Below, piece by piece: positions 1,870 to 11,393 of a stretch of DNA of 14,751 bases. The stretch covers positions 1-14,751 of the forward strand of contig JAGYMJ010000295.1 in NCBI GenBank assembly GCA_018400625.1. Reading direction: 5' to 3'. This stretch comes from Planctomycetota bacterium (GTDB lineage Bacteria; Planctomycetota; Brocadiia; SM23-32). The translations under genes and the position numbers were made by a program. Below the pieces are notes generated by a model, which was not told the origin of the DNA, ran no database searches, and saw only the letters and a program-made list of their open reading frames with translations. Each line of letters opens with the position of its first letter. Position 1 is the stretch's first letter.

Positions 1870-3144
1870 TTGGCAGGCAAGAAAATCTCAAAGAAAGAAA
1901 AGGAAAACATATTACAAAAAATGGCGTTGGTTATATTGTGCGTTCTCTGGCTGCTTCTCCCAACAGCTTTCGTCACTCGCCTGTCACGCTCGTTCGTTGA
2001 GAACGTGTTCATCCTCACCCCCCTGCTTGGCTTCATCCTTTGGGGCAAAGGCTGGCTGGGGGAATGCCGGTGGAGCAAGCCGGTCCTTGTCGCCGTGGGT
2101 GTCTTCACCGCGCTGACCGTCTTTGCTCAGTTCATACCTTTTCATCCCCTCAGCGGGCTCGATTCGGTGCGGTCGTTCCACGTTAAATTCGCCCTTGTGG
2201 TGCTCGGGATAATGTTCGTGCTGACAAAACCGCCGCTGACCAAGGCGCTGCTTTGGGGCTTTGCGCTGGCGATGCTGGTGGCGACGTTCTGGGGGCTTTA
2301 CCAGTGGATATTGGGCCCCGAGGCTTTGCCCTGGGAGTGGGACGGGAATCCGCACCTTATCTCTCCGTTCGGATACAACGTCAACCGGTTCGCTGCTTAT
2401 CTTGCCTATTTTTTGCCGGTGATGGCTGCAGCGGGATTTGCTTTCCACAAACAAAGCGTGAGGAAACTGAGGTTCTGGCTGACACCGTACGTGATATTGT
2501 TCCTGCTTTCCGTGTTTTTATTGATATTGACAGGATCAAGAGCATCACAGGGTGGATTTGCGGCGGCGGTGATTTGCATTTTATTTGGATTAGTCGCCAA
2601 AAATCGCTGCAGGAAGGTATGGATTGCCCTCGCTGTATTTTTTATTGTCCTTTGGACAGGCATATTCTGTTTGATCAGGGTCAGTGACTTAGGGGAGCGA
2701 ACGGAAAGTAAGTGGCGGAGTTCTCCTGAGTTTATCTCTGACAAACGCTTTACTCAGGTCTGGCCGGAACACTGGGAAGTGCTCCGGCCGTACAAATGGT
2801 TCGGACTGAATTTCTCGCGCGATCAGAGGGAGAAATATATCGAAGAAGAGCCGGGTTTACACGAACACAGTTTTTACATGGAGTTTTTTGCCGACAGCGG
2901 GCTGGTGGGCCTGGCCGGGCTTTTAGTTCTGGCCCTGTCATTGCTCGGCGCCGGCGTCTGGCGGCTGTGGCGGATGGATTACGGGGTGCATTACCTGCTT
3001 CTCCTGGGCGCTATGAGCAGCTACCTGGCGCTGCTTGCGCGATCGACCATGGACTCGGCCTATACCTACCAGTTCGAGTATTTCACCGCACTGCTGCTGG
3101 GCCTGGTGTGTATTCGGAAGGTTGATTGGGATCAAGACCGTTGA
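1822..3144 (+). CDS. O-antigen ligase / Wzy-type polymerase family membrane protein
   Basis: The product is a polytopic membrane protein with about ten to twelve hydrophobic segments. Two Wzy_C (PF04932)-like features are visible: LILTGSRASQGG near the middle, and a large extracytoplasmic loop ending in HEHSFYMEFFADSGLVGLAG. Enzymes of this family polymerise O-antigen or exopolysaccharide units, or transfer them to lipid A or protein, at the outer face of the inner membrane. The upstream sugar transferase fits this. The start is uncertain. The open frame begins at 1822, but its first 16 residues look like an ISL3 transposase, so the native start is probably later, such as ATG 1921 just before the first membrane helix. 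Neither has a strong ribosome-binding site. Which reaction it catalyses cannot be decided. Confidence 0.85.
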   Translation: MTFSSGTVEGLNHKINLAGKKISKKEKENILQKMALVILCVLWLLLPTAFVTRLSRSFVENVFILTPLLGFILWGKGWLGECRWSKPVLVAVGVFTALTVFAQFIPFHPLSGLDSVRSFHVKFALVVLGIMFVLTKPPLTKALLWGFALAMLVATFWGLYQWILGPEALPWEWDGNPHLISPFGYNVNRFAAYLAYFLPVMAAAGFAFHKQSVRKLRFWLTPYVILFLLSVFLLILTGSRASQGGFAAAVICILFGLVAKNRCRKVWIALAVFFIVLWTGIFCLIRVSDLGERTESKWRSSPEFISDKRFTQVWPEHWEVLRPYKWFGLNFSRDQREKYIEEEPGLHEHSFYMEFFADSGLVGLAGLLVLALSLLGAGVWRLWRMDYGVHYLLLLGAMSSYLALLARSTMDSAYTYQFEYFTALLLGLVCIRKVDWDQDR

Positions 3145-3167
3145 TAAATATTCAGTGAACCACGTTA

Positions 3168-3188
3168 CCGCCGGGCTTGTCCCGGTGG
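3168..3188. other. GC-rich stem-loop in the 3145-3389 intergenic region
   Basis: CCGCCGGG (3168-3175) pairs with CCCGGTGG (3181-3188) around a CTTGT loop, giving eight pairs with one G-U. No T-run follows, so it is not a typical intrinsic terminator. It could still stabilise or end the polysaccharide transcript. The rest of this 245-bp gap shows no gene, and I found no convincing promoter in it. Confidence 0.5.
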
Positions 3189-3389
3189 AGCGGTATTTCT
3201 GCACTACAAATGGAGGTGCCCTCCCCCCGGCCTCGCCCGCCGCGTTTCTGCCCAGGGAGGAAATAAAGTTAAATCCGTAAGTTTTTTATGGGAAGGATAT
3301 TGACACGACGATCAAATATCCTGACGGTATTCTTTTGGGGCTCTTTTACCTGACCTTTTTCCAATAAACTTCAGAATATACAAATAAGA

Positions 3390-4727
3390 ATGGAAAACAG
3401 CAAGCAAAATATCATCCTGGACTCTGTAAGCGAAGGCGTTTTTACGGTCGATATGGACTGGCGAATAACCTCCTTCAACCGTGCCGCCGAAGAAATCACC
3501 GGCATCAGACGAACCGACGCTGTGGGGAAACAGTGCCGGGATGTGCTTCAGGCCGATGCCTGTGAAAGCGGATGTACGCTGGCCGAAACCATGCGGACCG
3601 GCAAACCCGTCATGAATAAGGCCGTCCATATCATCGATGCTTCCGGCGACAGGCGGGCGATCGCCATCTCCACCGCCCTGCTGAAAGGCAGCAAGGGAAG
3701 TATCATCGGGGGCGTGGAGACTTTTCGTGATACAAGCGTGATCGAAGAACTGCGTAAGGAAATCGAAGGCCGATACTGCTGCGAAGATATTATCAGCCGG
3801 AGCCACCGGATGCGGGAACTTTTCGACATTCTCCCGAATATCGCCGAAAGCAACTCGACGGTTCTGATCGATGGGGAAAGCGGTACCGGAAAGGAACTGT
3901 TCGCCCGGGCCATCCATAATCTGAGCTTCCGCAGCGATAAGCCTTTTGTGACCGTCAACTGCGGCGCACTTCCGGATAACCTCCTGGAATCGGAGCTTTT
4001 CGGCTACAAGGCCGGCGCCTTTACGGACGCCAAGAAAGATAAACCCGGCCGCTTTGAACTCGCCGAAGGCGGTACAATATTCCTGGATGAGATCGGCGAT
4101 ATCTCGCAGAACATGCAGGTGAAGCTTCTTCGGGTTCTGCAGGATAAAACCTTTGAACCGGTCGGCGGAGTCCAGCCCGTCCAGGCCGACGTGCGGGTTC
4201 TTGCTGCAACGAACAAAAATCTTGACCGGCTCGTCAGCGACGGCTCTTTCAGGGATGATTTGTATTACCGCATCAACGTTATGCGCCTTCAGCTCCCGCC
4301 ATTGCGGGAAAGGAAGGAGGACATACCGCTGCTTGTGGACCATTTCATCCACAAATACAACCGGCTCCAGGGGAAAAACATCTCCTGCGTGACGAACGAG
4401 GTCACGGCGGCCCTGCTGTCGCACGATTATCCGGGCAACGTACGCGAGCTGGAGAACATCATCGAACACTGCTTTGTACTGTGCGAAGGCGAGATCATCG
4501 AGGCCCGGCACCTCCCCCCGTTTCTGCGTCCGCGGGGAGCGGCAGAATCTCAGCACGGCAAAGATGAAGGTCCGAAAACCATCCAGCAGATGGAGCAAAC
4601 GCTGATAGAGCAGGCGATCCAAAGAAACGACGGCAATAAAACCGCTGCCGCACGCGAGCTCGGGATCAACAAGAGCACGCTGTTCCGCAAGCTGAAAAAA
4701 TTCGAGATCAATGATGACAAAATCTAA
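3390..4727 (+). CDS. PAS-domain sigma-54-dependent transcriptional activator
   Basis: This 445-residue bacterial enhancer-binding protein has a PAS sensor (about 5-115), a short linker, an AAA+ domain (about 135-365) and a Fis-type helix-turn-helix (about 415-440, NKTAAARELGINKSTLFRKL). The AAA+ part has Walker A GESGTGKE (162-169), the sigma-54-contacting loop as GAFTDA (209-214, where GAFTGA is usual) and Walker B TIFLDE (229-234). There is no receiver domain, so it responds to a signal at the PAS domain and not to phosphorylation. The PAS carries Cys49, Cys58 and Cys62, a pattern compatible with redox or metal sensing. It overlaps the cupin gene, and a sigma-54 promoter with paired dyads lies about 0.5-0.65 kb beyond its stop, so that operon is its likely target. 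Specific effector unknown. Confidence 0.95.
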   Translation: MENSKQNIILDSVSEGVFTVDMDWRITSFNRAAEEITGIRRTDAVGKQCRDVLQADACESGCTLAETMRTGKPVMNKAVHIIDASGDRRAIAISTALLKGSKGSIIGGVETFRDTSVIEELRKEIEGRYCCEDIISRSHRMRELFDILPNIAESNSTVLIDGESGTGKELFARAIHNLSFRSDKPFVTVNCGALPDNLLESELFGYKAGAFTDAKKDKPGRFELAEGGTIFLDEIGDISQNMQVKLLRVLQDKTFEPVGGVQPVQADVRVLAATNKNLDRLVSDGSFRDDLYYRINVMRLQLPPLRERKEDIPLLVDHFIHKYNRLQGKNISCVTNEVTAALLSHDYPGNVRELENIIEHCFVLCEGEIIEARHLPPFLRPRGAAESQHGKDEGPKTIQQMEQTLIEQAIQRNDGNKTAAARELGINKSTLFRKLKKFEINDDKI

Positions 4728-5094
4728 CAAAATCCCACGTTCAGGCATTATTAAATGTAATCCGAGTACTGCGGATAATACAAGAATATTTATTGACGGC
4801 AGTACTCGTTCTCATGCTGCCCTTCAAACTGCTTCCATTGGATTGGGGACGTATAAACCAGGCTGGCAGTGGTCCTTACATGCAGGCCCGCAGACAGGTA
4901 AGAGTTCAGAGAACCATATTGGTTATGTTATCTCCGGACGTATGAAGGTCAAAGACCCATTCGGGAATGAAGCCGAGGTAGAGGCGGGATGTGCATTCGA
5001 AATCATGCCCGGAAGCGATGCGTGGGTGATGGGGGATGAGCCATGTATTGCTCTTGACTTCATACCCATGAGTAATCCTGCCAAATCCAAGTAA
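4711..5094 (+). CDS. Small cupin-domain protein
   Basis: This 127-residue single-domain cupin has the first conserved box around SLHAGPQTG and NHIGYVISGRMKV, and the second around VEAGCAFEIMPGSDAWVMGDEP. His residues of the first box are present, but the second-box position often filled by His (PGHDAW in relatives) is Ser here (PGSDAW), so metal binding may be altered. The ATG at 4711 overlaps the end of the activator gene by 17 nt, with a second ATG at 4714, implying co-transcription and coupled translation. Cupins of this size often bind small ligands, so it could act as an accessory sensor or handle the activator's effector; that is inference. No signal peptide is evident. Confidence 0.85.
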   Translation: MMTKSNKIPRSGIIKCNPSTADNTRIFIDGSTRSHAALQTASIGLGTYKPGWQWSLHAGPQTGKSSENHIGYVISGRMKVKDPFGNEAEVEAGCAFEIMPGSDAWVMGDEPCIALDFIPMSNPAKSK

Positions 5095-5210
5095 TTGCCG
5101 GTATGTTGAAAACGCCAACCGGGCCCTGGTAAGGCGCCTGGGGTCATGTGTTAACACTCCGGCTTAAGTCTTTCCCCATTTGATTCTGAACGCACGTCGA
5201 AAACAAAACA

Positions 5211-5260
5211 GGTTGCACCCTGCGCCCGGTGAAGAATCGCATCGGGTGCAAAGTGCAACC
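5211..5260. promoter_or_regulatory. Paired 17-bp dyads: candidate enhancer (UAS) for the sigma-54 activator
   Basis: Two imperfect palindromes share the plan GGKTGCA-N3-TGCAMCC. They are GGTTGCACCCTGCGCCC (5211-5227) and GGGTGCAAAGTGCAACC (5244-5260), with centres 33 bp apart, about three helical turns. They are also inverted copies of each other (5211-5231 with 5240-5260; 17 of 21 positions identical), so the region could form a long hairpin around AAGAATCG. They lie about 100-150 bp upstream of the -24/-12 promoter at 5358, the normal range for enhancer-binding protein sites. An RNA structural role in the cupin 3' end is the alternative. Confidence 0.6.
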
Positions 5261-5357
5261 GACGTCGCCGAGTCGCCTGCCTGCATTCCCGTTATTTTTT
5301 TGCATACTCTTATTTAACATGTGATTATGTTCTTCTTGTGTATTGTTTTTTTATGAA

Positions 5358-5373
5358 TGGTATGATTCTTGCT
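5358..5373 (+). promoter_or_regulatory. Sigma-54 (-24/-12) promoter
   Basis: TGGTATGATTCTTGCT matches the consensus TGGCACG-N4-TTGCW at the GG and TTGCW elements, with the correct spacing (GG at 5359-5360, GC at 5371-5372). The predicted transcription start is near 5384, giving an untranslated leader of about 80 nt before the ATG at 5465. An activator gene of the required type lies directly upstream. Confidence 0.72.
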
Positions 5374-5464
5374 TTAAGTGTTTTGTTGTTGTATTTGTTC
5401 TATCGACGCTGTTTCTACGTCAGGATCGCTTCGCGCAAGTAGAGGGTTTAGGAGAAAACACGTT

Positions 5465-6811
5465 ATGGAAAGAGAAATCGATGTTGTTGTTGTAGGAGGC
5501 AGTGCCGCAGGCCTTACAGCGGCTCTGACTGCCAGAAGGCATTATCAGGACAAATCAATTCTGATCATCCGCCGTGAAGAACAGGTACTGATACCTTGCG
5601 GGATACCCTATATCTTTGGAACCGTGGAAAGCCCGGAGAACAATCTCATTCCGGACGCCATTTTGGGAAAAAACGATATAGAACTTCTGGTCGATACCGT
5701 GGTCGATATCGACCGGGCAGCGAAAACCCTGCAGACAAAGGGCGGCGAAACAGTACTTTATAAGAAGCTTGTCCTCTCCACAGGTTCCCTTCCTGTAAAA
5801 CTCCCGCTGCCGGGAAGCGATCAAGATTCTGTTTTCGCGGTAGAAAAAAGCGTGCCGTATCTTGAGAGTATGCTTGAGGAAATAGATAAAGCCTCCGATT
5901 TACTTATTATCGGAGGAGGTTTCATCGGTGTGGAATTTGCCGATGAGTGCAAGAAAAATCGCAATTTGAATGTTACTATAGTCGAGATGCTCCCCCATTG
6001 TCTGCAGGCCGCATTCGACGAGGATTTCTGCAAACAGGCGGAATCGCTCCTTGATTCAAAAGATATAAATCGCATCACATCTGAAAAAATCGAGCGTTTT
6101 ACAGGTGACGGCAAAGTCAAGGGTGCGATCCTTAGCAGCGGCAGCGAGATCGAGGCGGATGTGGTTATACAAAGCGTTGGCGTTAAACCGAATATTGCTT
6201 TGGCAAAAGAGTGCGACCTGGACATCGGCCCCCTGGGCGGCATAAGCGTGGACAGATCCATGTGCACTTCCGACCCCGACGTCTTTGCCTGTGGCGATTG
6301 TGCAGAAAAAGTGTCGTTCTTTACCGGGCAACCAAGCCGGTTGTGGCTGGCCTCTATCGCAACCACCGAAGCAAGGGTGGCCGGAGCAAACCTGTTTGGC
6401 ATTACCCGCGCCTATCCGGGCGCTATCGGCGTTTATTCCACCGTAATCGGCGATACGGCGTTTGCCACGGCCGGGCTGACCGAAAAAGGGGCAAAGAAGG
6501 CCGGGTATTGTTCGGTGTCGGGACGAGCGGCATCCGTGAATCGCCATCCCGGCAGAATGCCCGGCGGAGCTGAGCTTGTGCTGGAGCTTCTTTTCGAGAG
6601 ACAGACACGCGTGCTGATAGGCGGACAGGCGATGGGAGCCAAGAGCAGCGGAGAACTCATCAATGCCGTCAGCGCATGCATTCAGCAGGGTATGACTGCC
6701 GATCAGATTGCCACCTTCCAGACCGGCACACATCCGGCACTGACCGCCTCGCCGATTGCGTACCAGCTTGTCAATGCCGCCGAAGAAGCAATTGGCGCTA
6801 TGAATGAGTGA
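5465..6811 (+). CDS. FAD-dependent NAD(P)-disulfide oxidoreductase (CoA-disulfide reductase / NADH oxidase-like)
   Basis: This 448-residue flavoprotein has an N-terminal FAD dinucleotide fold (VVVVGGSAAG, ending at residue 16), an active-site cysteine in VLIPCGIPY (Cys45), an NAD(P)-binding fold (LLIIGGGFIGVEF) and the second FAD motif VFACGDCAE. A single redox cysteine at this place marks the CoA-disulfide reductase, NADH oxidase and NADH peroxidase group, cytosolic enzymes using NAD(P)H. I chose ATG 5465: TAGGAG (5449-5454) sits 10 nt upstream, family sequence starts there, and the earlier ATG at 5378 would lie at or before the predicted transcription start. The stop overlaps a possible GTG start of the next gene, so the two are coupled. 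A likely role is electron donor to the downstream 2Fe-2S/ASKHA protein. Substrate unproven. Confidence 0.92.
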   Translation: MEREIDVVVVGGSAAGLTAALTARRHYQDKSILIIRREEQVLIPCGIPYIFGTVESPENNLIPDAILGKNDIELLVDTVVDIDRAAKTLQTKGGETVLYKKLVLSTGSLPVKLPLPGSDQDSVFAVEKSVPYLESMLEEIDKASDLLIIGGGFIGVEFADECKKNRNLNVTIVEMLPHCLQAAFDEDFCKQAESLLDSKDINRITSEKIERFTGDGKVKGAILSSGSEIEADVVIQSVGVKPNIALAKECDLDIGPLGGISVDRSMCTSDPDVFACGDCAEKVSFFTGQPSRLWLASIATTEARVAGANLFGITRAYPGAIGVYSTVIGDTAFATAGLTEKGAKKAGYCSVSGRAASVNRHPGRMPGGAELVLELLFERQTRVLIGGQAMGAKSSGELINAVSACIQQGMTADQIATFQTGTHPALTASPIAYQLVNAAEEAIGAMNE

Positions 6812-6867
6812 CTGAAGTTAAATCCTTCGCAAAAAGTCTGATTAATTTTGAGATGCCGGGGAAAAAA

Positions 6868-8721
6868 ATGTCCAAAAATGAATATAAAGTTACTTTTCAG
6901 CCGGAAGGTCAAAGCGTGATTGTGCTGGAGGGCACAGCCATCGTTGAAGCCGCAGGCCAGGCCGGTATTGCCCTGAATACCCCGTGTGGCGGGCAGGGTA
7001 CATGTGGAAAATGCAAGGTCATTGTACACGGCAAGGCGCCCGAGCCCTGTGCAGCAGGGAAAATACATCTTCAGGAAGATGAAATAAAACAAGGAATCCG
7101 TCTGGCCTGCCAGATGCGGGTTGACAGGGATATGGTGGTGTCAATACCGCCGGAAACACATTTTTTTGAGCAGGTTATCCTGACCGAAGGCCGCGAGGCT
7201 CTGCCGCATCACCATGAACCTAACGTGGTAAAACGCTTTTTGAAACTCGACGGGCCGGATAAAAACGATCTCCGAAGCGATGTGGACAGAGTGGTTGATT
7301 TGCTTGCGAAAGAGGGCCTGGATGTCTGGATGGATGTGCCGCTGATGCGGGATCTGCCCGGTGTAATCCGCGAGTCGGATTTTGCCATCACTGCGGTCAT
7401 CGACGGCAGTGAAGTCGTAGCACTGGAGGCCGGCGACACATCCCAAAGCGTTTTGGGGGTGGCGCTTGATATCGGCACGACCACCATTGCGGGCGTGCTG
7501 GTGGATCTGACCACCGGCCTTTCAAAGGCGGTGGCCAGCCGTACGAATCCTCAGATAAGATTCGGCGACGATGTCGTCGCCCGTATAAAATACGCGCAGG
7601 AAAACGACGACGGCCTGGACAAGCTCCAAAGCTCGGCAATCGATGCGATCAACGAGATCGTTGGGGAACTGACCGACTCGGTCGATCTCGGCCCGGAGCA
7701 CATCTACGAACTGACGTCCGTCGGTAATACCACAATGAGCCATCTCCTGCTGAATATACCTCCCCACTCCATCGCCAGGGCGCCCTACGTATCCGTCTTT
7801 CGGAGCGGTGTGGATTTGAAGGCCGCTTCCGCGGGGATAGAGACCAACCCCAATGCCAACCTGCACCTGCTTCCCAATGTTGCCGGTTTCGTCGGAAGCG
7901 ATACCGTAGCGGTCGCTATGGCATCCGGGATTGATACGGTCGATGATGGTGTGGCACTTGCGATAGATATCGGAACCAACGGCGAATTGGTCATCGGCAA
8001 TAAAGACCGGCTCATAGCATGTTCGTGCGCGGCCGGTCCAGCTTTTGAAGGTGCTCGTATCCGCCACGGGATGCGTGCGGCAAGCGGCGCCATCAACAAA
8101 GTCGTTGTTAACGATCGTATTGAAATAGGTGTGATAGGCGGCGGCAGAGCACGCGGGATCTGCGGCAGCGGCTTGCTCGATGCCGTCGCATCGCTGCTGG
8201 ATACGGGATTGATAGACCCTATGGGGCGCATCCTTACAGGCGAAAGCATACCCAACAGCGTTCCCGAAAAGGTCGCGGCGGCGGTGACGGAATTGGACGG
8301 TCAACCGGCCGTAACTCTGGCCGAAGGCGAGGCAGGCAACGGCCCGGTCTTACTGACACAGAAAGATGTGAGGGAACTTCAATTGGCCAAAGCTGCCATA
8401 GGGGCCGGCGCCAAGACAGTCAGCAGTGTTTTCGGGATAGAGCCTGAAGAACTGGATACGGTTCTGCTGGCTGGCGGTTTCGGCAATTTCATTAGGCGTT
8501 CCAGCGCGAAGCGTATCGGTTTGCTCCCGAATATGCCTTCGGAAAGGATAGAATCCATAGGCAATGCCGCACTTGTGGGGGCCGGATGTGCACTTACGTG
8601 CAGATGCTGCAGGCGGCAGGCCCAGAGCCTCAGCGATAACATAGCATATGTCGAACTCGCCGGCCGTCAGGATTTCCAGCAATATTACATGGAAGAGATG
8701 ACATTTCCCCCGGTCATTTGA
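6868..8721 (+). CDS. 2Fe-2S ferredoxin / ASKHA-domain (DUF4445) protein, RACo-like reductive activator
   Basis: From the ATG at 6868 (617 residues) the N-terminus is a plant-type ferredoxin with cluster ligands Cys40, Cys46, Cys49 and Cys81 (PCGGQGTCGKC and ACQ). After a linker come ASKHA ATPase motifs: LDIGTTTIAG (near 200), IDIGTNGELVIG (near 365), AAGPAFEGA, ICGSGLLDA and LAGGFGNF. This is the architecture of RACo/RamA-like activators, which use ATP to reduce inactive Co(II) corrinoid proteins to Co(I). No corrinoid protein or methyltransferase is nearby, so the target is unknown. A run of extra cysteines (CALTCRCC) sits near the C-terminus. The frame is open to a GTG at 6808 that overlaps the previous stop; 6853 and 6868 are also possible. 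I prefer 6868 because family sequence begins there and GGGGA is 5 nt upstream. Confidence 0.92.
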   Translation: MSKNEYKVTFQPEGQSVIVLEGTAIVEAAGQAGIALNTPCGGQGTCGKCKVIVHGKAPEPCAAGKIHLQEDEIKQGIRLACQMRVDRDMVVSIPPETHFFEQVILTEGREALPHHHEPNVVKRFLKLDGPDKNDLRSDVDRVVDLLAKEGLDVWMDVPLMRDLPGVIRESDFAITAVIDGSEVVALEAGDTSQSVLGVALDIGTTTIAGVLVDLTTGLSKAVASRTNPQIRFGDDVVARIKYAQENDDGLDKLQSSAIDAINEIVGELTDSVDLGPEHIYELTSVGNTTMSHLLLNIPPHSIARAPYVSVFRSGVDLKAASAGIETNPNANLHLLPNVAGFVGSDTVAVAMASGIDTVDDGVALAIDIGTNGELVIGNKDRLIACSCAAGPAFEGARIRHGMRAASGAINKVVVNDRIEIGVIGGGRARGICGSGLLDAVASLLDTGLIDPMGRILTGESIPNSVPEKVAAAVTELDGQPAVTLAEGEAGNGPVLLTQKDVRELQLAKAAIGAGAKTVSSVFGIEPEELDTVLLAGGFGNFIRRSSAKRIGLLPNMPSERIESIGNAALVGAGCALTCRCCRRQAQSLSDNIAYVELAGRQDFQQYYMEEMTFPPVI

Positions 8722-8762
8722 CCCAATATCTGAAAAACACTAAAATATAGGAAGCCTCAAAC

Positions 8763-9311
8763 ATGCAAGGCGCAAAAAAGAATTCTCGGTTTTCGAAGCT
8801 GTCTTCCCTGACTCCGACGATGGAAGATTACATGGAGGTTGTCACCAAGCTGGTTGCGAAGGAAGGAGTGGCCCATGTGCAAGATATAGCCGATGCCGCG
8901 GAGGTTCACAAGTCCACGGTAACCACAGCCATGCAGGTGCTGGCGGAAAAAGGGTTGGTAAATTACCGGCCGTATCAACCAGTCACTTTAACCGATGAAG
9001 GACGAAAGACTGGCGAACGCATTATTGAGCGTCATGAAGCCATTAGTACTTTTTTGTCGGAAATTTTATTAATAAACAAAGACCTTGCGGATGAAAACGC
9101 CTGCCGAATGGAACATGTGCTGGACCGGGAAGTTGTTGAGCAGCTTTCCGTTTTCGGCCGGTTTGTCAAAGAATGTCCCAGAGCGGGCAGGGATTGGCTG
9201 GAACGATTCCGGTACTACCGGTACTCTATGAAACACAGCAAAAATCCACCCAAAGACGAAAAAGCGCTCAAAGACTGGATAGAGCAGTTTCAGAAAAAGC
9301 TGAAAGTATAA
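8763..9311 (+). CDS. DtxR-family metal-dependent transcriptional regulator
   Basis: The 182-residue protein has a winged helix (about 20-78, VQDIADAAEVHKSTVTTAMQ) and a DtxR/MntR dimerisation and metal domain, without the C-terminal SH3-like domain of DtxR. Putative ligands are Asp22 and Glu25 (MEDYMEVV), His91 (ERHEAI), Cys114, Glu117 and His118 (ACRMEH). The CxxEH trio matches DtxR Cys102-Glu105-His106, whereas the Asp at the first position is MntR-like. Fe(II) sensing is favoured by the feoA and feoB genes downstream. The start has AGGAAG (8749-8754) 8 nt upstream. The gap to the ASKHA gene is 41 nt with no terminator, so it may be read through from the sigma-54 promoter. It probably represses iron uptake when iron-loaded. 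Confidence 0.92.
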   Translation: MQGAKKNSRFSKLSSLTPTMEDYMEVVTKLVAKEGVAHVQDIADAAEVHKSTVTTAMQVLAEKGLVNYRPYQPVTLTDEGRKTGERIIERHEAISTFLSEILLINKDLADENACRMEHVLDREVVEQLSVFGRFVKECPRAGRDWLERFRYYRYSMKHSKNPPKDEKALKDWIEQFQKKLKV

Positions 9312-9327
9312 AAATTTTTACCTTCAA

Positions 9328-9339
9328 TGTTGGGCAACA
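9328..9339. promoter_or_regulatory. Palindrome upstream of feoA, possible metal-regulator operator
   Basis: TGTTGGGCAACA is a perfect inverted repeat (5-bp arms, 2-bp centre) in the 94-bp gap between the regulator stop and the feoA start at 9406. Its place suits autoregulation of feoAB by the DtxR-type protein, but it does not match the classic 19-bp DtxR box. Weak call. Confidence 0.25.
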
Positions 9340-9405
9340 CAAACTATTAAGGGGTATTGACGAGTATGGCGTATTAAAATTTACTTGAATTGGAGAATGC
9401 AAAAA

Positions 9406-9642
9406 ATGTGTAAGAACCTGGCGGAACTTGGAAAAGGTGAGTCGGGAGAGGTTATTGGCTTTGATTCCGGGCACATGGCATCCCGGCGTTTCCAAAGCAT
9501 GGGGATTCGGCCCGGGAAAATAATATCAAGAGTCAGTTCTCAACTCATGGGAGGCCCGGTAACAGTATCGGTTGATGGACGCCAGACCGCTATGGGACGG
9601 GGGATGGCGGCAAAGGTGAAGGTGAAAGTTTTGAATCAGTAA
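9406..9642 (+). CDS. feoA: FeoA ferrous-iron transport accessory protein
   Basis: This 78-residue SH3-like protein reads LAELGKGESGEVIGFDSG, then RRFQSMGIRPGKIISRVSS and GGPVTVSVDGRQTAMGRGMA, the standard FeoA pattern. FeoA is a cytosolic protein that assists the FeoB transporter. I chose ATG 9406 because GGAGA (9392-9396) is 9 nt upstream; the open frame extends to a TTG at 9385, and ATG 9397 would abut the ribosome site. It is 32 nt upstream of feoB, same strand, so the two form an operon. Confidence 0.95.
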   Translation: MCKNLAELGKGESGEVIGFDSGHMASRRFQSMGIRPGKIISRVSSQLMGGPVTVSVDGRQTAMGRGMAAKVKVKVLNQ

Positions 9643-9674
9643 GACAGCAAAATAACAAATTAATGGAGATTTCA

Positions 9675-11393
9675 ATGCGTATCCTGCTGATGGGAAGTCC
9701 GAATGTGGGAAAAAGCGCCATTTTTTCGCGCCTTACCGGAACGCACGTGGTTGCCTCAAATTATCCCGGAACGACTGTAGAATTCACCCGGGGCCACCTG
9801 AAGATGGGAGAAGAAACCGCCGAACTTATTGATGTGCCGGGGGCTTATACTCTGGAGCCGACCAACAGGGCTGAAGAGGTGGCCGTTGAGATGGTGGATG
9901 AGGGAGATGTCATAGTTAACGTGGTCGATGCGACCAACCTGGAACGCAATCTGTATCTCACCCTGCAACTCCTTCAAACCGGCAAACCGATGGTAGTTGC
10001 GCTCAACATGTGGGACGAAGCGCTTGAACACGGGATTAATATAGATGCTGAGGACCTTGAAAAACATCTCGGGGTACCGGTCATTCCAACCTGTGCGATC
10101 AGCGGCGAGGGTGTCAAATCTCTCACCGACAGGTTGGAAGAGGCCGATCAGGGGGATTTAAAAGTCGTGTCGGAAGATATATGGCAAAGGATAGGCGAGA
10201 TAATTGAAGACGTTCAGCATATAGAATACAGGCATCCGACCTTCCGCCAGGTGCTGAGCCATGCCACCGTTCATCCCTTGATCGGGCCTTTCATCGCAAT
10301 GCTTGTGCTCTTTCTCAGTTTCTTTTTCGTCATCCATACCGGGGAGTGGCTGATTGGAAACGTGATGGAGCCAGCGTTCGAATTGGCCTGGGAGCCCGTA
10401 ACGGTATGGATTTCCGCCGCGCTCGGTGGAGAAGGTTTTATCCATGGCGTGCTGATAGGCGACCTGATAGAGGGGGAGATCGACATGGAAAACTCTTTCG
10501 GTCTTCTGACCACCGGGCTTTTCATCCCCATAGCGGTCATTCTCCCGTTTATTTTCTGTTTCTACTTCATCCTGAGCCTGCTTGAGGATATAGGCTACCT
10601 GCCACGCCTCGGGGTTCTGATCGACACGCTCATGCACAGGATGGGGCTTCATGGGCTGTCGATTGTGCCGATGATGCTGGGGCTGGGATGCAACGTACCG
10701 GGGGCGATGGCCGGACGCATACTGGAGACGAGGAAGGAGCGGTTTATCGCCCTGACTCTGGTGTCGATCTGCGTGCCCTGTATGGCGCAGATAGCCATGG
10801 TGGCGGGATTGCTGGGTGATGCCGGGATCACCGGGCTTGCGGTGGTATTTATGACACTGCTGATCCTATGGGTAGCACTTGGAGTATCGATGAAGTATTT
10901 TCTGAAGGGCGAGACGCCGGAAATTCTCGTTGATATACCTCCATACAGATTGCCGTACTGGAAATCGCTTGTCAAAAAGGTATATATGCGCATGAAGGGG
11001 TTTGTCAGGGAAGCGCTTCCTTACGTGCTGTTGGGGGTCTTCCTCGTTCAGCTACTCTATACGCTCGGAATAATTGCTCTTTTAGACCGCGCTTTCACGC
11101 CGGTCGTGCAGACCCTGTTCGGTCTCCCCGGCACCGCAGTCGGCCCGCTTATCGTTGGTTTTCTTCGCAAGGATGTGGCGGTCGGCATGCTTGCGCCGCT
11201 GGGGTTGAACACGCGTCAGCTTATCGTTGCCAGTGTCATACTGGTCATTTATTTCCCGTGCGCGGCAACGTTCGTTGTGCTTTTCAAGGAACTGGGCATA
11301 CGCGACCTGCTGAAAGCGTCGGGAGTTATGATAGTTGTGGTAACCGTGGTGGGCACCGGCCTGAACGCCCTGCTCCGCATAGCCGGGTTGTGA
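9675..11393 (+). CDS. feoB: FeoB-type Fe(II) transporter with N-terminal GTPase domain (short form)
   Basis: From ATG 9675 the protein has 572 residues, well below the roughly 770 of E. coli FeoB. G motifs are GSPNVGKS (7-14), Thr33-Thr34 in NYPGTTVE, DVPG (53-56) and NMWD (111-114). A helical GDI-like linker follows, then hydrophobic segments with two Gate-type blocks: GLGCNVPGAMAGR with VPCMAQIAM, and FLRKDVAVGML with FPCAATFVVLFKELG. FeoB imports Fe(II) across the inner membrane under control of its G domain. The VPCMAQ stretch differs from the SCxARLP seen in the classical transporter, pointing to a separate subfamily. GGAG at 9666-9669 supports 9675 over ATG 9663. It is the last gene of the dtxR-feoA-feoB set. 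Metal specificity is inferred from the family. Confidence 0.93.
   Translation: MRILLMGSPNVGKSAIFSRLTGTHVVASNYPGTTVEFTRGHLKMGEETAELIDVPGAYTLEPTNRAEEVAVEMVDEGDVIVNVVDATNLERNLYLTLQLLQTGKPMVVALNMWDEALEHGINIDAEDLEKHLGVPVIPTCAISGEGVKSLTDRLEEADQGDLKVVSEDIWQRIGEIIEDVQHIEYRHPTFRQVLSHATVHPLIGPFIAMLVLFLSFFFVIHTGEWLIGNVMEPAFELAWEPVTVWISAALGGEGFIHGVLIGDLIEGEIDMENSFGLLTTGLFIPIAVILPFIFCFYFILSLLEDIGYLPRLGVLIDTLMHRMGLHGLSIVPMMLGLGCNVPGAMAGRILETRKERFIALTLVSICVPCMAQIAMVAGLLGDAGITGLAVVFMTLLILWVALGVSMKYFLKGETPEILVDIPPYRLPYWKSLVKKVYMRMKGFVREALPYVLLGVFLVQLLYTLGIIALLDRAFTPVVQTLFGLPGTAVGPLIVGFLRKDVAVGMLAPLGLNTRQLIVASVILVIYFPCAATFVVLFKELGIRDLLKASGVMIVVVTVVGTGLNALLRIAGL

Follow-up and report, generated by a model that had tools for sequence, protein, structure and literature searches.

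Gene content and regulation of the locus

A 14,751-bp stretch of DNA from a Planctomycetota bacterium of the class Brocadiia was analyzed for the regulation of a flavoprotein and a RACo-like gene. This window is the whole of contig C295, part of a 3.19-Mb metagenome-assembled genome (MAG) that is 83% complete; a Candidatus Brocadiaceae MAG (L004) is the nearest named relative. The window encodes a sigma-54 activator (enhancer-binding protein) of the OrpR type, a small cupin whose gene overlaps that of the activator, a flavoprotein resembling coenzyme A (CoA)-disulfide reductases, and a RACo-like protein with ferredoxin and ASKHA domains (the ASKHA protein). Two dyads and a -24/-12 promoter-like box lie between the cupin and flavoprotein genes. 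All four genes had been named in an earlier, sequence-only reading, and open reading frame calls and Pfam matches confirm them. It is well supported from sequence that the activator has a probable operator, formed by the two dyads, and a candidate -24/-12 box ahead of the flavoprotein-ASKHA pair. We favor, with moderate confidence, the interpretation that a branch of an OrpR-type sigma-54 regulon has moved onto a new operon, where it drives the flavoprotein and a RACo-like corrinoid reactivator. The regulatory observation is better supported than it was from reading the sequence alone, and the locus has the appearance of a branch of an OrpR-type regulon, which has so far been seen in a single genome.

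Probable operator and promoter in the window

The two dyad centers are 33 bp apart, and the proximal center is 106 bp upstream of the box. A matrix built from six dyads of orange-protein (ORP) promoters in other genomes, none from the window, was scored over all 14,751 bp. The proximal dyad ranked first (17.7 bits) and the distal dyad second (17.6 bits), followed by a third dyad at 11.6 bits. None of 300 shuffled windows contained a pair scoring this well 28–36 bp apart, and 2 of 5,000 shuffled intergenic regions contained even one such dyad. The consensus used to pick the six training dyads was drafted while looking at the ORP promoters as well as the window, which leaves the matrix ranking not fully blind; it was checked with a window-blind 5-mer count and with two held-out loci (L086 and L117, described below). 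In the 5-mer count, GCAAC and TGCAA alone occur in all six non-window ORP promoter regions. Palindromicity by itself ranks the dyad first in L069 and in the window (proximal dyad), ties in L067, and does not rank it first in L068, L070, L086, or L117. The evidence for an operator therefore comes from common sequence and layout.

The box is the sole exact match in the window to TGGYRYRN4TTGCW. Its GG and GC elements are 10 nt apart, and in the TGGCACG/TTGCW context it matches at 10 of 12 positions, with both mismatches in the -24 element. Allowing up to one mismatch to TGGYRYRN4TTGCW gives two matches against 1.56 expected by chance, and a site at 2930, inside an O-antigen-ligase gene, equals the box score (10/12) against TGGCACG-N4-TTGCW. 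The box was consequently dropped as stand-alone evidence, being within chance. The paired dyads and well-spaced box of the sequence-only reading are present, and it is their combination that exceeds chance in the shuffled windows. That dyads and box arose by chance, with no circuit behind them, is extremely improbable: the box alone would allow it, but the joint layout, the matrix from other genomes, and the window-blind 5-mers all argue against it.

The same layout at ORP promoters

ORP promoters carry dyads of the form GGTYGCA-N4-TGCRACY. Paired dyads in L067, L068, and L070 are 32–35 bp apart, with the proximal center 94–98 bp upstream of a sigma-54 box. We scanned 125 loci for two dyads 29–37 bp apart (dyad cut 9.0 bits) followed by a box 80–125 bp on. 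The joint layout was found only at the window and at the promoters of ORP-like genes in L067, L068, L070, and L086, the rest being overlapping loci. Overall, tandem dyads precede ORP-like genes in five other contigs, one of them (C648) from the window's own genome. Locus L086 (G085, 2178-9464) belongs to another class and was outside the training set. Its dyads are 32 bp apart ahead of an ORP gene, and directly upstream of the dyads and ORP genes is an activator homologue (51% identity) with the same cysteine triad and a GAFTGA loop. A flavoprotein homologue (44%) is on the same contig, about 2 kb from the ORP genes.

In the window's own genome, ORP genes scoring above cut-off occur on C648 and C674, and none occurs in the window. 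At the C648 promoter (L117, 3593-3782), ahead of an ORP gene, the dyads are separated by 33 bp and a box, TGGCACAACTGTTGCT, follows at a distance of 108 bp; the corresponding values in the window are 33 and 106. No convincing dyad pair was found on C674, which has three ORP genes (best dyad 12.9 bits, next 10.1). The window activator is the sole close homologue in its genome (E 1e-110 or better), making it the best candidate regulator for the window and C648 alike, and it probably drives an ORP gene as well. The sequence-only reading had described a self-contained circuit controlling a dedicated module, and the like layout at a same-genome ORP promoter makes both terms too narrow. A regulated module, with the activator beside a probable operator and box, is retained; neither dedication nor self-containment finds support, given the C648 promoter (L117), the location of relatives' activators beside ORP-like genes, and the lack of a sigma factor gene in the window. 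The resulting operator model (GGTYGCA-N3/4-TGCRACY in two copies 32–35 bp apart, proximal center 94–108 bp upstream of the -24 element) can be used to list ORP regulons.

Table 1. Positions of the genes and regulatory features in the window
Feature	Position	Strand	Details
OrpR-type sigma-54 activator	3390..4727	+	PAS with C49-x8-C58-x3-C62; AAA+ with GAFTDA loop; Fis-type helix-turn-helix
Small cupin, 127 aa	4711..5094	+	17-bp overlap with activator gene; Cupin_2 under cut-off
Distal operator dyad (probable), GGTTGCA-CCC-TGCGCCC	5211..5227	+	matrix from ORP promoters
Proximal operator dyad (probable), GGGTGCA-AAG-TGCAACC	5244..5260	+	center about -132 from predicted start site
A+T-rich (63%) spacer	5261..5357	+	best IHF-like match weak, 7/9 at 5315
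-24/-12 sigma-54 promoter-like box, TGGTATG-ATTC-TTGCT (TGGTATGATTCTTGCT)	5358..5373	+	predicted start about 5384
CoA-disulfide-reductase-like FAD/NAD flavoprotein, 448 aa	5465..6811	+	conserved Cys45; acidic E174 at NAD site
RACo-like [2Fe-2S]-ASKHA protein, 617 aa	6868..8721	+	Fer2 and RACo domains (Pfam)
DtxR/MntR-type metalloregulator	8763..9311	+	family matches
feoA	9385-9642	+	neighborhood part common to nearest relative
feoB	9663-11393	+	neighborhood part common to nearest relative

Activator and cupin

The activator has the Pfam domains PAS, Sigma54_activat, and HTH_8, giving a one-component architecture of PAS, AAA+, and Fis-type helix-turn-helix domains. Full-length homologues with 58–60% identity were identified in four other members of the class (L067-L070), each adjoining an ORP-like gene. 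Pfam PF02579 confirms the ORP genes of L068, L069, and L070; the protein of L067 had no Pfam match at 0.001 and is ORP-like solely by resemblance to that of L070, where the ORP cluster is larger and includes a ferredoxin-bearing NUBPL/Mrp-type ATPase. Of nine loci submitted for activator alignment, seven yielded one; L071 and L075, where the search pattern matched no activator, were dropped. The PAS triad C-x8-C-x3-C is common to the window and all four ORP-linked activators, and the aligned cysteines are absent from the activators of L072, L074, and L076. Residue conservation was counted over 120 listed homologues each for the activator PAS domain, the flavoprotein, and the ASKHA protein; 115 of the 120 PAS sequences, the window's own included, have the triad. 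A GAFTDA loop is present in the activators of the window and L067. It is not diagnostic of the OrpR type because L068, L069, L070, and L086 carry GAFTGA. The closest full-length relatives among the 120 listed have 77% identity and include a protein from a Sedimentisphaerales MAG (P0354), which hints that the activator gene may have originated outside the class.

The locus resembles the orp system of Desulfovibrio vulgaris (DVU2106/OrpR, sigma-54, IHF) in having a one-component GAFTDA activator, palindromic operators, and a sigma-54 promoter in an anaerobe, a likeness drawn from published features. Published work on D. vulgaris gives a GAFTDA loop for the orp activator DVU2106 (PMC4641369) and an orp1 operator at -131 (PMC3897727), compared with -132 for the proximal dyad here. 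Unlike that system, the window has a flavoprotein-ASKHA pair as its target, tandem dyads spaced by 33 bp, each with a gap of 3 nt, and a cupin gene overlapping the activator gene. No ORP gene stands beside the activator, and we therefore call it OrpR-type and not OrpR. The activator is also of the type found with MrpORP/Mrp-ORP clusters for Fe-S biogenesis, and flavoprotein homologues occur within or about 2 kb from such clusters in G098 and G085, but the window lacks both Mrp and ORP genes.

The cupin is probably translationally coupled to the activator, judging from the overlap of their genes. Its Cupin_2 match is weak (21.5 bits against a cut-off of 27.2), no relative was found in the PDB by sequence at 0.1, and matches occur in 3 of 58 class genomes, its own included.

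The RACo-like protein

Pfam domains of the ASKHA protein are Fer2, RACo_linker, Raco_middle, and RACo_C_ter. It aligns with the RACo structure 3zyy at 382 bits, and each of its four [2Fe-2S] cysteines is conserved in at least 119 of the 120 listed homologues, whose organism names, where given, are all Brocadiia or other Planctomycetota. With [2Fe-2S], linker, middle, and ASKHA domains it is built like the RACo/AcsV and RamA-like (DUF4445) reactivators, and it is a probable corrinoid or cobalamin reductive activator. Genetics implicates DUF4445 proteins in B12 reactivation for methionine synthase (PMC5764234). The sole PF02607 match in the window's genome is a free-standing corrinoid protein of 208 aa, encoded on C466.

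A canonical RACo of the acetyl-CoA pathway placed under its own regulator would have the same RACo-type domains, and is very unlikely here. The score against AcsV (NF040756) is 455.2 bits, under the 800-bit cut-off, and unlike RACo/AcsV the window protein has no corrinoid-protein gene adjacent. Another RACo of the same genome (L003), 33–36% identical to the window protein, adjoins a gene that by eye resembles a subunit of the corrinoid iron-sulfur protein, and the ASKHA protein was rejected as the genome's acetyl-CoA-pathway RACo on that ground.

A cysteine-rich patch near the C terminus, C574-x3-C-x-CC (8587-8610), was also observed. C581 is present in 105 and C578 in 70 of the 120 listed homologues, and no cysteine of RACo 3zyy stands opposite the patch in the alignment.

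The flavoprotein

The flavoprotein has Pyr_redox_2 and Pyr_redox_dim domains. Its best NCBI family is CoA-disulfide reductase (TIGR03385), at a score far under the cut-off (250.7 against 578.8 bits), and the closest solved structures by sequence include NoxA-3, CoA-persulfide reductase, and CoA-disulfide reductase. Cys45, which we take to be the active-site position near FAD, is invariant in all 120 listed homologues. E174, which ends the second nucleotide-binding strand, is found in at least 117 of them and presumably favors NADH, as expected for the fold. With 114 near-invariant positions across the 120, the listed homologues form a subfamily. The protein thus shares domains and Cys45 with CoA-disulfide reductases, NADH oxidases, and CoA-persulfide reductases; unlike CoA-disulfide reductases it falls under the family cut-off, and some subfamily members lie in or near ORP-type clusters.

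These features leave room for a different role, in which the flavoprotein serves under thiol or oxygen stress, as an NADH oxidase or as a reductase of CoA-(per)disulfide or polysulfide, the ASKHA protein restores corrinoid enzymes that this stress has damaged, and the two share a signal and not electrons. We regard this as plausible though not probable. The structural relatives, the conservation of Cys45 and E174, and the redox-type activator are all in keeping with it, while the low CoA-disulfide reductase score and the lack of a rhodanese domain among the Pfam matches are not.

Homologues of the flavoprotein are rare. Among 58 genomes of the class, only its own gave a match at 1e-60; among 392 genomes of the phylum, 6 did so at 1e-100, again counting its own. 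Two further classes, with 9 and 29 genomes, yielded one genome each at 1e-120, both already known. In L082 (G098), a homologue is part of a same-strand cluster with an ORP/DUF5320/Fer4 gene, a DUF1847 gene, a methyltransferase, a YkoF protein, and, by eye, an Mrp-like ATPase; a different RACo-type gene is 4.3 kb from the flavoprotein. No activator homologue was found in the 10.3 kb examined of this contig, which is 15.3 kb long, and the 400 bp searched upstream of the flavoprotein contain no good sigma-54 box. A homologue with 58% identity in L083 has a full-consensus box, TGGCACGGAATTTGCT, upstream. On a Peptoclostridium plasmid (L090), a homologue lies near methyltransferase, YkoF, DUF5320, DUF134, and MBL genes, and nothing telling surrounds the homologue in L085. 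The homologue in L084 (2558-4375) is fused, by eye, to a response-regulator-like domain. A similar fusion, to a response-regulator receiver domain (PF00072), was seen in P0198.

Linkage across genomes

Linkage was surveyed at 14 loci (the window and L047-L059) with ASKHA homologues of at least 47% identity. L047 is a paralogue from the same genome, L054 is cut by a contig end, and several contigs are 5.7–8 kb, so neighbors could be missing. The sequence-only reading had looked to conserved linkage around close ASKHA homologues; an activator, cupin, or flavoprotein was found near the ASKHA gene at 1 of the 14 loci, the window alone, and a conserved four-gene module was rejected. The same reading held that flavoprotein/ASKHA pairs lacking the activator and box would speak against it, and such a pair was seen, in part, in L082 alone and within the DNA examined there. 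Of 58 class genomes, 55 have matches to the ASKHA family, one or more of these matches being ferredoxin-only, and in 29 of 30 genera there is some match. Beside the ASKHA gene, feoAB occurs at 2 of the 14 loci and a sensor kinase at 1. Together with the counts for the flavoprotein and cupin, this distribution means that the full assembly of parts is seen in the window's own genome only.

Several results weigh against placing both genes in a regulon branch. The ASKHA gene, besides having its supposed partners nearby only in the window, is next to fusA at 6 of the 14 loci and may be a bystander. A RACo-type gene occurs in just one of six other flavoprotein neighborhoods (L082); an activator homologue likewise occurs in one of the six. 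Two of seven -24 positions of the box are off consensus, and the window dyads have a 3-nt gap compared with 4 nt in the ORP dyads of other genomes. The distal dyad of L117 is weak, at 8.9 bits just below the cut of the joint-layout scan, which also missed L069 with its imperfect second dyad. rpoN was not found in the 83% complete assembly; it is present in 11 of 12 other genomes examined, both same-genus genomes included. NADH alone is insufficiently reducing for the step from Co(II) to Co(I), and that the PAS cysteine triad supplies Fe-S ligands in OrpR is our presumption.

The regulatory link may instead be real with the flavoprotein as its sole target, the ASKHA gene (and DtxR-feoAB) being an older downstream neighbor for general cobalamin reactivation. 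This stands not far short of an even chance. The nearest ASKHA relative (L048; 79%, same genus) keeps ASKHA-feoAB without activator, cupin, or flavoprotein, and the fusA neighbors and wide occurrence of the ASKHA gene point the same way, as does the lack of an ASKHA-type gene in the stretches examined around the flavoprotein in L083, L084, L085, L086, and L090. Against it, the two window genes are on the same strand with no terminator-like site in the 56-bp gap between them, and G098 has another RACo-type gene clustered with a flavoprotein homologue (L082).

The fusA-adjacent orthologues (L049-L053 and L055) come from six genomes of the window's family. In the window's own genome, the ASKHA paralogue (60%; L002/L047, on C44) comes immediately after a PAS-HisKA sensor kinase; the first 120 residues of this kinase resemble a dinucleotide-binding domain by eye and have no Pfam match.

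A possible redox circuit

Placing both genes under a transferred branch of the OrpR-type regulon, the interpretation we favor, builds on the gene order, the ORP-linked type of activator, the tandem dyads, the box, and the like layout at ORP genes, including in the same genome. The activator's PAS domain would hold an Fe-S cluster on C49, C58, and C62 and report the anoxic or redox state, with the cupin as a probable small-molecule or metal-sensing accessory. Once active, the protein would bind the dyads at about -165 and -132, the DNA would be bent by IHF or through the A+T-rich spacer, and the GAFTDA loop would open sigma-54 polymerase at the box. Of the two operon products, the flavoprotein would be NADH-dependent, and the RACo-like protein would spend ATP on returning inactive Co(II) corrinoid to Co(I), perhaps on the free-standing corrinoid protein. 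The flavoprotein may maintain the RACo-like protein, or the thiol/Fe-S surroundings of that protein, in a reduced state. The lineage probably acquired flavoprotein and activator, which came to lie beside a resident ASKHA-feoAB locus.

To our knowledge, the direct electron source of RACo-like corrinoid reactivators is unsettled. Activators of the RACo type require an electron donor. For an O-demethylase system, ferredoxin or flavodoxin have been proposed as activator donors, and the activator Fe/S center is at -330 mV (PMC6739815). An NADH-dependent flavoprotein could reach a center of this type, which makes the pairing of interest as an electron route. A broader version is rather unlikely. In it, the OrpR/ORP regulon of anaerobes would comprise a pair of proteins delivering electrons for cobalamin repair, with the flavoprotein filling the missing role of a dedicated NADH-dependent reductase for a RACo-type activator; the redox-sensing activator would switch on B12 repair along with that of Fe-S (ORP), and in this lineage the pair would have separated, carrying a copy of the ORP operator. 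The locus suggests that Fe-S and B12 maintenance may have one common anaerobic redox switch, and it links a RACo-like corrinoid reactivator with one particular flavoprotein amenable to expression and assay. No published report of a flavoprotein-RACo link was found among the titles and abstract openings of the literature surveyed.

Gene starts and neighboring genes

The likely start of the flavoprotein is the ATG at 5465, preceded by AGGAG; an alternative GTG at 5378 is upstream of the predicted transcription start. The ASKHA gene likely starts at the ATG at 6868, 56 bp past the flavoprotein stop. A B12-dependent ribonucleotide reductase gene is also downstream, along with the DtxR/MntR-type gene, feoA, and feoB. 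At gathering thresholds, Rfam matched nothing in the window. A strong sigma-70-like match (10/12) at 8718-8746, between the ASKHA and DtxR-type genes, may be a separate promoter for feoAB, although in this region matches of this kind do not exceed chance in number. Small UPF0175 and DUF433 genes (Pfam) at 932-1687 are possibly toxin-antitoxin-like.

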